This document shows positions 7,697 to 13,061 of a stretch of DNA of 64,000 nucleotides, one piece after another. The position numbers were made by a program, and so were the translations under genes. The number at the start of each line of letters is the position of its first letter. Position 1 is the first letter of the stretch. The notes below the pieces were generated by a model that saw only the letters and a list, made by a program, of their open reading frames with translations, made no database searches and was not told the origin of the DNA. Origin of the DNA: an uncultured Aliiroseovarius sp. (GTDB lineage Bacteria; Pseudomonadota; Alphaproteobacteria; Rhodobacterales; Rhodobacteraceae); assembly GCF_947497285.1 (NCBI RefSeq), contig NZ_CANMFT010000001.1, positions 124,001-188,000 of the forward strand, given 5' to 3'.

Positions 7697-8090
7697 TCAC
7701 CCGCAGAGCACCTGTTCGGCGTCGTCATTTGCATAGGCCTCCGACCGCGCCAGAATGTGATCACAATAGATGCAATCAATTACGCAAAGATAAGCTCTCC
7801 GGCCGGGTTTTTCCGCTGCGACCAGCGTTGAGCCAGGTCCGCCAAAGACGTCGAGGACGACATCGCCCCGGCCTGACACATCCCGGATAGCATCGGCAAT
7901 CATCTGCACCGGCTTGACGGTCGGGTGAAGCGCCAATTCTTGCATGCGGTTGCCGTGGCGGCTGTTGACCCCTCGGTATTGCCAGACTTGGCGTTGTCAG
8001 TTTCACCTGACCCATAAAACCCGTCACGATCCTTCGCTGCTCGGGGTCGCGTTTTTCCTGAACATGAGGTGAAATTTCCCTGTTCTAAAA
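7697..8090 (-). pseudogene. DNA methyltransferase remnant (C-terminal part)
   Basis: From about 7997 leftward one frame reads YRGVNSRHGNR, ELALHPTVKPV, IADAIRDVSGRGDVVLD and FGGPGSTLVAAEK, ending at a stop at 7697. HPTVKP and the D-x-F-GG-x-GST block are the target-side and S-adenosylmethionine motifs of N4/N6 DNA methylases. Upstream the frame is interrupted by a TGA and the similarity continues in another frame (GSGETDN near 8005), which indicates a frameshift. The N-terminal catalytic motif is absent. The usual GGSGST reads GGPGST here. A dead phage or genomic-island gene is the simplest reading. Confidence 0.7.
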
Positions 8091-8728: not shown

Positions 8729-9127
8729 ATGACCAAGCAAAATGACAAAGTACTTTCCCGCCGCAAGGCATTCACTGCCATCGGTGGCCTGGCTGTGGCC
8801 GCCTATGTGGCGCCCACATTGACCACACTTTCTGCGGCACATGCTGCCAGTTCGTCTTCATCCGCCAGCCCAGCTTCGGCGGCGAGCCCGGCCTCGAAAT
8901 CAAGCCCGGCCTCGAAATCAAGCCCGGCCTCGAAAGTAAGCCGTGCCTCGGCCACCAGCCGACCTTCGAGTTCATCAAGCTCCTCTTCACCAAGCTCAAC
9001 GTCGTCTCCGACATCTCCCAGCGGACCAAGCAGACCCAGCAAGTCGATGACGCCAAGCGAGTGCAGGGACTCTGGCGGCACAGTCGTTAAGCGCGATGAT
9101 GGAGTTTCGGTTTGTAGCCGCAGCTAA
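8729..9127 (+). CDS. Serine-rich Tat-signal protein
   Basis: Small protein of 132 residues and unknown function. The N-terminus has a twin-arginine signal (SRRKAF at 10-15, hydrophobic to about 36, likely cleavage after AHA at 39). Residues 40-107 are almost only Ser, Ala, Pro and a few Lys/Arg, including an exact DNA repeat. The tail (108-132) carries two cysteines, C112 and C129, which could form a disulfide. The signal region resembles that of the protein at 10486 (shared pattern AY-x-AP-x-L-x2-LS, then A-x-AASSSS), so they are likely paralogues or co-evolving partners. The start has AAGGA 9 bases upstream. An HPr-kinase-like gene follows, which makes the serines possible phosphorylation targets. 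Confidence 0.75.
   Translation: MTKQNDKVLSRRKAFTAIGGLAVAAYVAPTLTTLSAAHAASSSSSASPASAASPASKSSPASKSSPASKVSRASATSRPSSSSSSSSPSSTSSPTSPSGPSRPSKSMTPSECRDSGGTVVKRDDGVSVCSRS
8885..8938 (+). repeat. 18-bp tandem repeat, three copies
   Basis: The unit agcccggcctcgaaatca occurs at 8885-8902 and 8903-8920, with a third copy at 8921-8938 that differs at two bases. It encodes the hexapeptide SPASKS inside the serine-rich protein. The copies are near-identical, implying recent slippage and probable length variation among strains. Confidence 0.9.
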
Positions 9128-9247
9128 GTCGGAAATATCTCATTTCAGACACCCGGTCTGCTTGCAATTCATTTGCTGGCAGACCGGACAGCTTTAGGGC
9201 ACGATGGAAATTGAGTAGGATGAGCGGAACCAGCTCAGGATTGAAAC

Positions 9248-10489
9248 GTGGCAACAACGCGATATCTGAATTTTGAAGGTTTGAATCACTCCGTCGCGCT
9301 TGAAAACGCGGCGCCCTTAGAGACGATGGTGTCGGAGGTATTGTCCGCGTGGCCTCATCAGGTTTCCGCGACACAGCCCCAAAACCCACCATTTGTGACA
9401 ATCAGACCAGCGGATGACGGTCGGTGGTCGTTGGTGGCCGAAGACGCGCCATCCGACGTTCGGATTTGGGACTCAGTCAATACCGTCTGTGATCTCGTGG
9501 CGGAAACGGCTTGGGAACGTCTGCGGTCCGAGCCTGAATTGCTTTGCCTACACGCCGCAGCTGTCAATTTCGATGGACGGTTGGTTGTCTTCCCTAATGC
9601 GCGGCGCGCGGGCAAGAGCACGCTTGCCATTGCGCTGGCGCGGCTTGGTCGGCAGCTTTACACGGACGACTTCTTGCCCGTGCGAATTGATGCAAGCAAT
9701 CAGACTTGTCTTGGTATTGCGAATGGGGCACCGCCACGTATTCGCCTTCCCGTTCCGAAAGACTTCAGCGATGCTTTTCACGCGTGGGTGGGTCAGGATC
9801 GTGGCCCGTCAAATCGACAATACAAGTATCTTTTGGACGCTCAGATAGCGCCACATGGAGAAACATTGCCGCTTGGCGCAATGGTGGTGCTTGATCGGCA
9901 GGATGATCCGGTCGAACCAGTCCTCGCCCCCATGGCGCGTGAGGATGCGCTGGAAAGCCTGATCTCTCAGAACTTTGCCCGCACACGGCATGCTGGCGCG
10001 ATCCTGAAATCGATCGACGTGATCACGCGACACCTTCCGATCTATCGGTTGAGCTATCACAGTGGTGAGGCTGCAGCAGAATACCTCTCGGGTCACTCCG
10101 ATTTGAAATCGCTCCCGGCGACCCGGTTTGCAGAACTTGCACAGGATGATCGCCAAGCGCCGTTAAACCAGATTGGCCAATCCACCCCCGAATTCGCGGC
10201 GGTTCGGCAGTATGTTCAGGCAACGAACGTGACCGAGACGCAGGCGGGCAACGACAGTTTTCTTGCAGATGGCACAGGTTTGGCCATATTTCGATTGAAC
10301 CCGGTCTCGACTGCGATCTGGCGGTTGCTGGAAGAGCCGACCGATCTGGACGAAGTCGTGTCCCTTCTGGCAGCAGCCTTTCCCGATGTCCCCGCAGATC
10401 AGATCACCACCGATTGCGAGCAGTTGATGCGTGGTCTGGCCGAGGCGCGTCTGATCCTGCCAGTGGCTTCAAAGGATGCGGCGCAATGA
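9248..10489 (+). CDS. HPr-kinase-like protein fused to a PqqD-like domain
   Basis: A 413-residue two-part protein. Residues about 98-260 resemble HprK-related kinases: LCLHAAAV at 99-106, a P-loop ARRAGKST at 118-125, and the acidic pair D140/D141 (LYTDDFLPV). The first glycine of the canonical P-loop is replaced (N117). Residues about 335-405 match a PqqD-type peptide-binding domain (FRLNPVSTAIW, then CEQLMRGLAEARLIL). HprK/PqqD combinations are known in lasso-peptide and other RiPP clusters, where the kinase phosphorylates the peptide. It starts at GTG 9248 with AGGA upstream, and its stop overlaps the next gene. No macrocyclase, nucleotidyltransferase or radical-SAM gene is nearby. The natural inference is serine-kinase action on one or both neighbouring secreted proteins. 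Confidence 0.75.
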   Translation: MATTRYLNFEGLNHSVALENAAPLETMVSEVLSAWPHQVSATQPQNPPFVTIRPADDGRWSLVAEDAPSDVRIWDSVNTVCDLVAETAWERLRSEPELLCLHAAAVNFDGRLVVFPNARRAGKSTLAIALARLGRQLYTDDFLPVRIDASNQTCLGIANGAPPRIRLPVPKDFSDAFHAWVGQDRGPSNRQYKYLLDAQIAPHGETLPLGAMVVLDRQDDPVEPVLAPMAREDALESLISQNFARTRHAGAILKSIDVITRHLPIYRLSYHSGEAAAEYLSGHSDLKSLPATRFAELAQDDRQAPLNQIGQSTPEFAAVRQYVQATNVTETQAGNDSFLADGTGLAIFRLNPVSTAIWRLLEEPTDLDEVVSLLAAAFPDVPADQITTDCEQLMRGLAEARLILPVASKDAAQ

Positions 10490-11055
10490 AACGCAAAAAT
10501 CGCATATCACGCCGCGAGGCCATGAAGCGTCTGGGTTTGGGTGCAGCCGGCGCCTATATCGCCCCTAGCTTAGCTGGATTAAGCATGGCCAGAGCGGCTT
10601 CAAGTTCATCGCCACCGTCGCCTGCCAGTAGGGCAACACCCCCAAGTCCGGCGTCACCGGCTTCCCGCCCTAGCCCAGTGAGCAGAGCGAGCGCCCCTTC
10701 AGGTCCAAGCCGTCCAAGCGGTCCAACTGGTCCAAATGGCAGCGGTGGGTCGCAGCCGAGTGGCCCTAGCGGACCCGGCAAATGCAAACGATCTGCGATT
10801 TCAGGGGACGCCCAGATATCGCGCCGGGATTACCAACGTGCACAACGCGCCATTTCGCGTGGTGACGCGCGACCGTTGCGCGAAGTGCTAAGCAACGTTC
10901 GCGCCAAACACCCTGGGAAAGTTTTACATGTAGGGTTTTCCGAGAACGGGACCAGACCGACCTTCAACGTGTTGATTGTTGAGTCGTCTGGCGCCGTGAT
11001 TTCGGTGACCGTTGACGCCAAATCCGGCCGAGTCACAAGCATGCGGAAGTGCTGA
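10486..11055 (+). CDS. Ser/Pro-rich Tat-signal protein with PepSY-like C-terminus
   Basis: Exported protein of 189 residues. A twin-arginine signal lies at 8-13 (SRREAM) with a hydrophobic stretch to about 37. Residues 38-98 are Ser/Pro/Gly/Arg-rich (repeated SPAS and SGPS units). Residues about 111-187 fit a PepSY-type domain: RAISRGDARPL, VRAKHPGKVL, then VTVDAKSGRV. Cysteines are C100 and C189. The start is set at ATG 10486, overlapping the kinase stop (ATGA), because the signal peptide begins there. It is followed at once by a response regulator and sensor kinase. Small PepSY-like periplasmic proteins beside such pairs, for example FeuN with FeuPQ in Sinorhizobium, restrain the sensor, so a periplasmic regulator role is likely. 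Confidence 0.75.
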   Translation: MKRKNRISRREAMKRLGLGAAGAYIAPSLAGLSMARAASSSSPPSPASRATPPSPASPASRPSPVSRASAPSGPSRPSGPTGPNGSGGSQPSGPSGPGKCKRSAISGDAQISRRDYQRAQRAISRGDARPLREVLSNVRAKHPGKVLHVGFSENGTRPTFNVLIVESSGAVISVTVDAKSGRVTSMRKC

Positions 11056-11721
11056 ATGCGTATTCTGATCGTCGAAGATGAACAAAAGATTGCGGAACTG
11101 ATTGCCGATGTTCTGAAAGGCGAAGGCCTTGTCCCCGAGATCGCCCGGGACGGGGAAGAAGGCTGGTTTCTCGGCAGCACCGAAAGCTATGCTGCGGCGA
11201 TCCTTGATATTGGTCTGCCCAAACGGGATGGGCTTTCGGTGTTGCGCAGCTGGCGCGATGAGGGCCAGGATATGCCGGTTATTTTGCTGACCGCGCGGGC
11301 AAACTGGAACGAACGGGTCGAAGGCATTGACGCAGGCGCGGACGACTATCTGGGAAAGCCCTTTCAGATGGAAGAACTCATCGCGCGCCTTCGCGCGCTG
11401 CTGCGGCGTTCAAGTGGACAAAAAACAACGACATTGGAAGCCGGGCCGCTGCGCATTGACCTCAGGCAGATGCGCGTGTCCATCGACGGGCGCCCATTGA
11501 AAGTCACACCTTTGGAATACCGGCTTCTCAATTACCTCATGCACAATCGTGGTCAGGTGGTTGCGCAAGAGGAGCTTGCTGAGAATATCTACTTCCGGGA
11601 TCAGGAGCCCGACAGCAATGCAATTGAAGTTCTGGTCGGGCGCTTGCGCCGCAAGATCGGTGGGGATGTGATCGAAACGCGACGCGGGTTTGGCTATATG
11701 ATAGCTGAAGATCCGCAATGA
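11056..11721 (+). CDS. OmpR-family response regulator
   Basis: Two-component regulator of 221 residues. The receiver domain has the acidic pair E7/D8, phospho-acceptor D51 (AILDIGLPKRDG), T79 and K101. The C-terminal winged-helix domain runs from about 128, with TPLEYRLLNYL and the end motif VIETRRGFGYM. The ATG directly follows the stop of the PepSY-like gene, and the stop overlaps the sensor kinase start, so all are co-transcribed. Closest functional classes by gene order are FeuP/PhoP-like regulators, though targets cannot be read here beyond possible autoregulation. Confidence 0.88.
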   Translation: MRILIVEDEQKIAELIADVLKGEGLVPEIARDGEEGWFLGSTESYAAAILDIGLPKRDGLSVLRSWRDEGQDMPVILLTARANWNERVEGIDAGADDYLGKPFQMEELIARLRALLRRSSGQKTTTLEAGPLRIDLRQMRVSIDGRPLKVTPLEYRLLNYLMHNRGQVVAQEELAENIYFRDQEPDSNAIEVLVGRLRRKIGGDVIETRRGFGYMIAEDPQ

Positions 11722-13061
11722 GGATGTCGCTAAGCCTGCGTCTGTTGCTGGCGGCTGCCATCACGACCACACTGGCGCTGGTCGCGACGGTTATCGTGTT
11801 CAACTTCTTGTTCCGGCTGTATTTTGAAGACCGGGCGCGCGATGAGCTGGAGACTTACCTCCTGCTTTTGACCGGCAACATTGGCGTAAGCGCCGACGGT
11901 GAAGTTGAAGTGACGCCCATATCGGACCCCCGGTTCAATCAGGCCTTGTCTGGTTATTACTGGCAAATCCAAGTTGATGACAAAGACCCCGTTCTGTCGC
12001 CTTCGTTCTGGGCGGCGCCTTTGGCGTTGGATCGCCCGGATGCGCCGGGGGTCATCTCGTATGCCAACGTCAACACCGGGACTGGCGATGCGGTCGCCGT
12101 CGCGAGTTGGGTGGTCACGATCGGAGAGGGCACCACCCAGCGAGAGGTCTTTCTGGCGATTGCCATTGACCGCGAAGACCTGGATCTGTCGGTTTCAGGA
12201 TTTTTTACCAACTCTGTTATTTGGCTGGCCATATTGGGCCTGTTTCTGTTCGCGGCGGGTTGGGTTCAGGTCAAACTTGGGCTGAACCCACTGAAAAAAA
12301 TTCGTTCAGAAATTGGCGGTGTCAGCAAATCGCCCAAGGTGCGGTTGTCATCGGATTATCCGTCCGAGGTTCTGCCGCTTGTTGAAGAAGTGAACCAACT
12401 TCTGGATGCAAATGCAGAGGCGCTTGAACGCGCCCGATCGCGCGCCGGGAATCTGGCGCATGGTTTGAAAACGCCGCTGACGATCATGCACGGAGTCGAA
12501 CGCAAGTTGCGCCGTGGCGGGAACGACGCGCTTGCCGACGAATTGATGTCGGAAATCACCAGCATTCAACACACGGTCGAGCGTGAGCTGGCGCAGAGCC
12601 GCGACAGCCATCAGAGACGGCGGCGCTGTGCTATTCACCCGATTGCCACCCGTCTGCATCGCGCCCTGAGCCGCCAACCCGGGGCCGAGCACATTCAATG
12701 GGATATCGAAGTGCCTGAGACCTTGTATGCACCCTTTGATGAGTTTGATTTGACCGAGCTTCTGGGCAACTTGCTTGATAACGCGATGAAATGGTCGGAA
12801 AGTCGTATCTGCGTGCGGGCTGGGCAGGATGGCTCGCACGCGTTCCTGTCCGTCGATGACGACGGCTCCGGCATTCCGGACGCTGAGATATCTTCCGTTC
12901 TGAAACGTGGCGGTAGATTGGACGCAAAGCAACCGGGGGCGGGTCTGGGTTTGACCATTGTTAACGATATGGCCCAAGCGCACGGCTGCGTTCTGTCGCT
13001 CCAACGCTCATCACTAGGGGGGTTGAGCGCGCGCATAACGTGGTCGGTGAGCCGCGCGTAA
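11718..13061 (+). CDS. Sensor histidine kinase (PhoQ/FeuQ-like)
   Basis: Membrane sensor of 447 residues. Membrane spans lie at about 8-32 and 165-185 and enclose a periplasmic domain of roughly 130 residues that could contact exported proteins. The dimerisation box has H248 in LAHGLKTPL, the variant typical of PhoQ/FeuQ kinases. The ATP-binding domain shows the N box (LLGNLLDNAMKW), DDDGSGIPD and GAGLGLTIV. It overlaps the regulator by 4 bases. The adjacent PepSY-like protein would face the sensor domain in the periplasm. Confidence 0.87.
   Translation: MRMSLSLRLLLAAAITTTLALVATVIVFNFLFRLYFEDRARDELETYLLLLTGNIGVSADGEVEVTPISDPRFNQALSGYYWQIQVDDKDPVLSPSFWAAPLALDRPDAPGVISYANVNTGTGDAVAVASWVVTIGEGTTQREVFLAIAIDREDLDLSVSGFFTNSVIWLAILGLFLFAAGWVQVKLGLNPLKKIRSEIGGVSKSPKVRLSSDYPSEVLPLVEEVNQLLDANAEALERARSRAGNLAHGLKTPLTIMHGVERKLRRGGNDALADELMSEITSIQHTVERELAQSRDSHQRRRRCAIHPIATRLHRALSRQPGAEHIQWDIEVPETLYAPFDEFDLTELLGNLLDNAMKWSESRICVRAGQDGSHAFLSVDDDGSGIPDAEISSVLKRGGRLDAKQPGAGLGLTIVNDMAQAHGCVLSLQRSSLGGLSARITWSVSRA

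Follow-up and report, generated by a model that had tools for sequence, protein, structure and literature searches.

A candidate leader-directed phosphorylation system for Tat-exported serine-repeat proteins in an uncultured Aliiroseovarius and its relatives

The closest known kind of system to the one considered here is that of the linear polyphosphorylated peptides (LPPs; LppA/K/B/S/D/N), in which an HprK-like kinase is combined with a discrete, PqqD-type recognition element (RRE) for ribosomally synthesized and post-translationally modified peptides (RiPPs) and with a YxxP leader; they are described there as restricted to the Bacillota (PMC13381572). Binding of this leader by LppB is nearly abolished by the exchange N33A and reduced by D70A, and LppB, TbiB1, PbaB1 and TfuB1 are all given in the same text as RREs of Y/WxxP leaders (PMC13381572). 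Phosphorylated lasso peptides of the paeninodin type also bring together an HPr-kinase-like enzyme and a PqqD-type B1 protein on a leader-bearing precursor (PMC7533575). Work on bufferins describes RiPP precursors that bear an export signal of the general secretory (Sec) pathway, raises the problem of timing modification against export for such RiPPs, and proposes that a partner masks the signal (PMC12452194). Here, a locus of an uncultured Aliiroseovarius sp. (Rhodobacteraceae) is described from a 64,000-nucleotide stretch of DNA, referred to as the window. Its gene F encodes an HprK-like kinase fused to a PqqD/RRE domain, flanked by the genes of two serine-rich proteins with twin-arginine translocation (Tat) signals, T1 and T2. 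On balance, we favour the reading that this is a leader-directed secretory phosphorylation system, in which F would bind the Tat signals and phosphorylate the serine repeats, and T2 would feed a sensor. The new element is the YxxP motif within Tat signals, and the open-access literature searched yielded no account of an HprK/RRE enzyme that works with a Tat signal as RiPP leader.

Five genes lie on the plus strand between positions 8729 and 13061, namely T1, F, T2, a response regulator (RR) and a sensor histidine kinase (HK). An earlier note, made from the letters of the window, had proposed five genes in one direction with four overlapping or abutting, and every one of these open reading frames was recovered: F and T2 overlap by 4 bases, T2 and RR abut, and RR and HK again overlap by 4 bases. 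The features are as follows.

8729–9127, + strand: T1, a 132-residue Tat-signal precursor with 42 serines, period-3 serine repeats and two cysteines near the C-terminus
8804–8815, + strand: YxxP of T1 (Y26-V-A-P29) inside the Tat signal; its Y and P do not vary across the 28 signals that make up profile A4
8846–9049, + strand: serine-rich repeat segment of T1, residues 40–107, the proposed kinase target
9153–9187, + strand: G+C-rich hairpin between T1 and F, from folding of the gap
9248–10489, + strand: F, HprK-like kinase and PqqD/RRE fusion of 413 residues, GTG start assumed
9551–9670, + strand: putative kinase active-site stretch of F, with H102, P-loop RRAGKS at 119–124 and D140-D141, from alignments
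10208–10462, + strand: PqqD/RRE domain of F, residues 321–405; N351 and D389 align with LppB N33 and D70
10486–11055, + strand: T2, 189 residues with 33 serines, comprising a Tat signal, a serine-rich segment and a C-terminal PepSY domain between C100 and C189
10555–10566, + strand: YxxP of T2 (Y24-I-A-P27) inside the Tat signal, from the sequence
10597–10779, + strand: serine-rich segment of T2, residues 38–98, of low confidence in the AlphaFold2 model
10813–11052, + strand: PepSY domain of T2, residues 110–189, predicted local distance difference test (pLDDT) about 90
11056–11721, + strand: RR, response regulator of the OmpR type that comes nearest to the curated models PmrA, QseB, TctD and PhoP without reaching the cut-off of any
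11718–13061, + strand: HK, sensor histidine kinase whose nearest curated model, PhoQ, is matched below its cut-off

F probably recognises T1 and T2 via the YxxP motif inside their Tat signals. The PqqD family (PF05402) matches residues 346–403 of F at 50.7 bits against a gathering score of 23.4, and Foldseek superimposes the C-terminal domain on leader-bound TbiB1 (5v1v) over 83 alignment columns with a root-mean-square deviation of 1.6 (TMt 0.82, E 3.4e-4). By sequence, the solved chains nearest to the F RRE include TbiB1, LppB (9x8z), PbaB1 (9x90) and TfuB1. In our own alignment mapping, LppB N33 falls on N351 of F (N in 24 and D in 3 of 27 sequences) and LppB D70 on D389 (D in 26 of 27). 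On the substrate side, the 28 signals of profile A4 (27 from T1 plus the window's T2) have R3, R4, Y18, P21 and A29 as invariant columns, the Y and P of the motif thus being kept to the same degree as the twin arginine. The invariant columns of 20 T2 sequences include the twin arginine, Y24, P27, C100 and C189. A YxxP precursor and an RRE with Asn and Asp, the features of lasso and LPP leader recognition, therefore make F and these signals a candidate binding pair. The twin arginine (R3, R4) and an AxA-type cleavage site with invariant A29 predict export by Tat; the Tat profile TIGR01409 (cut-off 16.7) gave T2 17.7 bits in one scan and 10.1 in another and matched T1 in neither. Over their whole length the signals of T1 and T2 resemble each other, in agreement with the earlier proposal of two serine-rich Tat proteins with related signal regions. 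That YxxP is a general feature of Tat signals was considered and rejected. Among 30 loci fetched from 47 listed Tat-profile matches in three genomes (with a profile that does not pick up T1), the motif lay within the signal in two, the T2 described here and that of one other genome (G241); the other 28 lacked it inside the signal, two of them having a YxxP in the mature part.

The YxxP-type Tat signal and the kinase also occur together across genomes. Among the 198 family genomes sampled (G000 to G197), 20 matched A4 at E <= 2.9e-9, comprising all 19 F-positive genomes of that sample and G196 (Fisher p 1.4e-25, with membership of the sample deduced from genome handles). G196 is 64% complete, and its T1 terminates 281 bases short of a contig end. 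As A4 was built from F-positive genomes, the informative part is its absence elsewhere. A class sample of 190 genomes gave 14 other A4 matches (E <= 1e-4), 13 of them with a kinase at E <= 4.5e-28; the remaining one, G506, has a kinase match at 2.5e-6. Peptide and kinase lie on separate contigs or about 40 kb apart in five genomes (G474, G478, G459, G420 and G514). Some kinase match at E <= 1e-5 was present in 101 of 385 genomes in the class-level search, and G577 has a kinase (7.5e-32) with no signal match, to which G496 (9.1e-22) may be similar. The class-level Fisher test was set aside because it presupposes G577 in the sample, which the output does not confirm. In the outgroup loci, kinase and PqqD are often encoded by two adjacent genes. 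Beyond the class, the fusion was seen in two genomes of a single family, directly preceded by a YxxP-Tat peptide. In four outgroup loci (L289, L291, L295 and L296) the cores of the YxxP-Tat peptides are short, rich in Cys, Pro and Gly and poor in serine, perhaps with another modification target; in L289, L291 and L296 the peptide is unlinked to the kinase. In L125, an apparent lasso-type precursor (YVRPALTVFGS...) is followed by genes for an HprK-like kinase and a PqqD protein.

F is predicted to be an active kinase on the basis of an HprK-type feature set, a P-loop GKS with an upstream His and a downstream Asp pair. H102, G122, K123, S124, D140, D141, R164 and R166 are invariant in all 27 aligned homologues, and the stretch from H102 to D141 aligns with the matching stretch of HprK 3tqf. 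We take the HprK active site to consist of a His, the P-loop and an Asp pair, and assign this role to H102, GKS and DD of F. The AlphaFold2 model, built with 35 sequences, reached pLDDT 91.4 and a predicted TM-score (pTM) of 0.88, and its Foldseek matches are led by PEPCK and HprK chains (3tqf, 1kkl) and also contain RRE structures; the TM-scores for the kinase half are modest (TMq 0.18–0.41). Family matches of this half are weak. The window's F scores 36.8 bits against HprK_rel_A (TIGR04352), whose curated cut-off of 200 places it outside the family as curated. All 35 F sequences scanned match this model (best E 7.6e-18), and one of 35 matches its companion PqqD_rel_X (TIGR04353). The conserved residues, predicted fold and PF05402 match together uphold the HprK-like/PqqD fusion proposed in the earlier note.

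T1 matched no family at a meaningful score in scans of curated and Pfam models, and serine makes up 27.7% of its 54 distinct cores. Pairs of serines at spacing 3 number 727 in these cores against 326.7 +- 12.8 in shuffles (z 31), with similar excesses at spacings 6 and 9 (636 and 579 against 312 and 301; z 26 and 22). The same excess at 3, 6 and 9 is found in 25 distinct T2 segments (z 14, 12 and 9), and chance serine richness of T1 and T2 was rejected on the ground of this spacing. The repeats are candidate sites, and multi-site phosphorylation may be suggested from the sequences. Core type tracks the F tree: in a clade of ten F sequences the T1 cores are mostly cationic RPS/RPT-type or Gly-Ser and lack the C-terminal Cys, and with the other 44 they are near-neutral or acidic with Cys pairs in nearly all. 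Most T1 proteins of the T2-bearing clade have a Cys pair near the C-terminus, which could form a disulfide.

Genome comparison separates the locus into two parts. Of the 394 family genomes sampled, 30, the window's included, contain a homologue of F at E <= 1e-10. Among named relatives, Aliiroseovarius sp. S1339 (L129) is the nearest, with 97% identity in F. A Tat-YxxP protein lies upstream of F in 28 of 29 loci from the other sampled family genomes (exception L059) and in 33 of 34 from the genome collection (exception L157, where F is near a contig start). Pooling these 63 relative loci, at least seven of which are in both sets, T1 is upstream of F in 61, which bears out the expectation that serine-repeat Tat proteins accompany the fusion. 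T2 lies downstream of F in 8 of the 29 loci of the first set and in 21 of the 34 of the second (29 of 63 pooled). T2-RR-HK is confined to one part of the tree of 54 F sequences and requires seven changes by parsimony, some of which may be contig ends. Since T1 is near-constant upstream of F and T2 is found in 29 of 63 loci, T1-F is regarded as the core and T2-RR-HK as an addition; one conserved five-gene unit was rejected on the same T2 count. The earlier view of the five genes as one combination is amended to this extent, T1-F being conserved and T2-RR-HK joined to it in part of the F tree.

PepSY proteins are known as regulators of two-component systems, FeuN-FeuPQ being one such module. The earlier note had rightly given T2 a Tat signal and a serine-rich segment, and had overlooked the PepSY domain at its C-terminus. 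PF03413 scores 25.0 bits there, with the cut-off at 24, and 10 of 19 T2 sequences matched this family independently. The best Foldseek matches of the AlphaFold2 fold of T2 are 2gu3 YpmB and 4exr, with weak E-values (0.05–0.06). Two cysteines flank the PepSY domain in all but one of 30 T2 sequences, counted with duplicates (L037, the exception, is cut short), and might form disulfides. RR and HK are of OmpR type and a sensor histidine kinase by nearest curated models, as the regulator/kinase pair of the earlier note implied. The arrangement recalls DbfQ-DbfR-DbfS, in which the gene of a small exported PepSY protein directly precedes those of the regulator and the sensor kinase (PMC12714742). 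The signal of DbfQ is of the Sec type, whereas T2 combines a YxxP-bearing Tat signal with a serine-rich segment. Judged from the sequence, T2 would be such an exported-type PepSY protein, and it is plausible, by analogy with the DbfQ-DbfS precedent as far as it is described (PMC12714742), that it is a periplasmic ligand of HK.

The relatives of HK allow the PepSY regulator to be compared with and without F. At E <= 2.4e-89, homologues of HK were found in 9 of the 394 genomes, every one beside F, and the matches that come next are at 6.9e-73 and weaker. At E <= 1e-45 the count is 47 genomes; 21 of the weaker loci were read, and 18 of these have a script-found PepSY-type neighbour; most of these match T2 by BLAST, and one is Pfam-confirmed. 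None of the 18 PepSY-type partners not adjoining F has a Tat-YxxP signal or a 25-residue stretch with more than 16% Ser. Tat signal, YxxP and serine repeats on the PepSY regulator were therefore seen only next to F. A further Sec-PepSY-RR-HK set lies on contig 9 of the window's own genome. Additionally, a subtilisin with the Tat-YxxP signal is encoded at four F-linked loci (L047, L048, L049 and L051) and in F-positive G026. Reading 30 S8 subtilisin loci gave the signal in two (L223 and L224, both from F-positive genomes) and in none of 24 from F-less genomes, with N-termini taken from open reading frame starts, so that this comparison is less clean than the PepSY one. In the four F-linked loci, of another clade, the YxxP-type Tat protein precedes T1-F, being Peptidase_S8 by Pfam in L051 and by eye in the others; an apparent extracytoplasmic function (ECF) sigma-factor gene, also judged by eye, is near several of them.

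The favoured mechanism would run as follows. The PqqD/RRE domain of F would dock on YxxP within the Tat signals of T1 and T2, the export signal serving as a RiPP leader too, and the HprK-like domain would use ATP to phosphorylate serines of the period-3 repeats in the cytoplasm. Tat export could leave time for such cytoplasmic modification, and signal-bound F may retain the substrate until it is modified; Tat and signal peptidase would then free the product into the periplasm. T1 would be the ancestral product. Within one part of the F tree, T2, a PepSY regulator like DbfQ that belongs to the neighbouring two-component system, may have been drawn in; in the periplasm it would set the balance between the kinase and phosphatase activities of the sensor, acting as DbfQ acts on DbfS (PMC12714742). 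Genes, domains, motif invariance and co-occurrence are read from sequence and the fold is predicted; binding of F to the signal, its kinase activity, the target residues, the holding back and the effect on the sensor are what we infer from them. It is possible, rather than probable, that the Proteobacteria hold a dedicated secretory-phosphoprotein pathway that turns YxxP-Tat proteins into polyphosphoserine proteins and was fitted at least twice onto unrelated exported proteins, a PepSY sensor regulator and a subtilisin.

Other roles for F have to be weighed against this. As a Tat proofreading chaperone, resembling redox enzyme maturation proteins, F would hold the signal with its RRE and time release by P-loop ATP, and the substrate would get no phosphate. 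Tat signal-binding chaperones are on record (PMC8428690), and the invariant substrate element does lie in the signal and not in the core, whose sequence varies freely. The strongly non-random serine spacing of the core, the invariance of the HprK His and Asp pair besides the P-loop, beyond the needs of a timer, and the phosphorylation of precursors by related HprK and RRE pairs, as far as these are described (PMC13381572), nevertheless make a chaperone unlikely. We give an equally small chance to T1 being a small lasso- or LPP-like RiPP, in which a short piece of core (a single Ser or a C-terminal Cys motif) is the product and the repeats a spacer. This would fit the two Cys kept near the C-terminus in T1 of the window's clade and several short outgroup precursors with Ser or Thr before a Cys-Pro-rich core, but the same signal type stands on a PepSY protein and on subtilisins, and a scan of eight flanking genes revealed neither a cyclase nor an LPP-type peptidase or exporter (no SpI-type peptidase, NTP transferase or MsbA-like exporter). 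Two of the eight encode ABC ATPases of the sugar type and two encode dehydrogenases; the others encode a solute-binding protein, PfkB, an amidohydrolase and a SnoaL-like protein. A lasso cluster as such was rejected: the B2 transglutaminase (PF13471) is missing from the window's genome and a lasso cyclase from the eight flanking genes, the cyclase not having been searched genome-wide, so the absence of cyclisation genes claimed earlier is borne out to this extent.

Least probable of all, in our view, is that T1 and T2 share their signal by duplication only, with YxxP a feature of a signal-peptide family and the target of F elsewhere. A copied T1 signal would bring YxxP to T2, the two signals are indeed similar overall, and 22 of 40 class loci have no YxxP peptide near the kinase; yet peptide and kinase co-occur even when unlinked, Y and P are invariant though most other signal positions vary, and the nearest solved chains to the RRE are RREs of Y/WxxP leaders. 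Several observations also weigh against the phosphorylation system itself. The kinase half lies far under the curated HprK_rel_A cut-off with modest Foldseek scores, and a YxxP that lies within the hydrophobic stretch of a Tat signal has to be free before membrane insertion. Serine repeats are of low complexity and able to arise by slippage, the phosphates added by LppK are all on one serine and none on a repeat (PMC13381572), and multi-site phosphorylation may be lineage-specific, because some outgroup precursors have few serines. Moreover, L059 has a partial F match without T1, weak A4 matches (E 1.1e-4 to 0.0086) occur in nine further family genomes, and outside the family a YxxP-Tat peptide is near the kinase in 18 of 40 class loci, counted by reading. 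Three F-positive genomes (G012, G283 and G361) hold an unlinked PepSY two-component set without Tat-YxxP, and four (G175, G132, G064 and G184) a subtilisin without it.

The 120 bases between T1 and F contain a strong hairpin, which may hold T1 expression above that of F. Folding z-scores were <= -2 in 24 of 34 T1-F gaps, the window's included (60 shuffles each; gaps cut at 200 bases, some extending into F). The hairpin of L150 is followed by a T run, attenuator-like. Upstream of T1, a gene-poor stretch contains a match to the C-terminal part of an N6/N4 DNA methylase (PF01555, 49.4 bits; 7697–7945, minus strand), probably a remnant.

A leader-directed phosphorylation system at this locus would share with the LPPs the HprK-like kinase, the PqqD-type RRE, the YxxP leader and the RRE Asn/Asp seen in F, and differ from them in its proteobacterial host, in a Tat signal as leader, in serine repeats and whole proteins as cores, and in an RRE fused to the kinase (unfused in many outgroup loci). 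It differs from the paeninodin type in its Tat-signal serine-repeat proteins, with no B2 in the genome and no flanking cyclase, and from bufferins, which use Sec rather than Tat, MNIO enzymes and Cys chemistry with no kinase; the available text on these mentions neither Tat, PqqD nor a kinase (PMC12452194). If the reading is true, leader-directed phosphorylation extends from peptides of the Bacillota to the Proteobacteria and to whole exported proteins, and one short sequence is both an export signal and a modification tag. Pre-export modification would further be tied to the input of a two-component sensor. The HprK/PqqD pairs seen in Alphaproteobacteria would gain a role. On the broader, possible reading of a dedicated pathway, the polyphosphoserine products would parallel, in bacteria, the secreted phosphoproteins of the casein or phosvitin kind and might bind cations.

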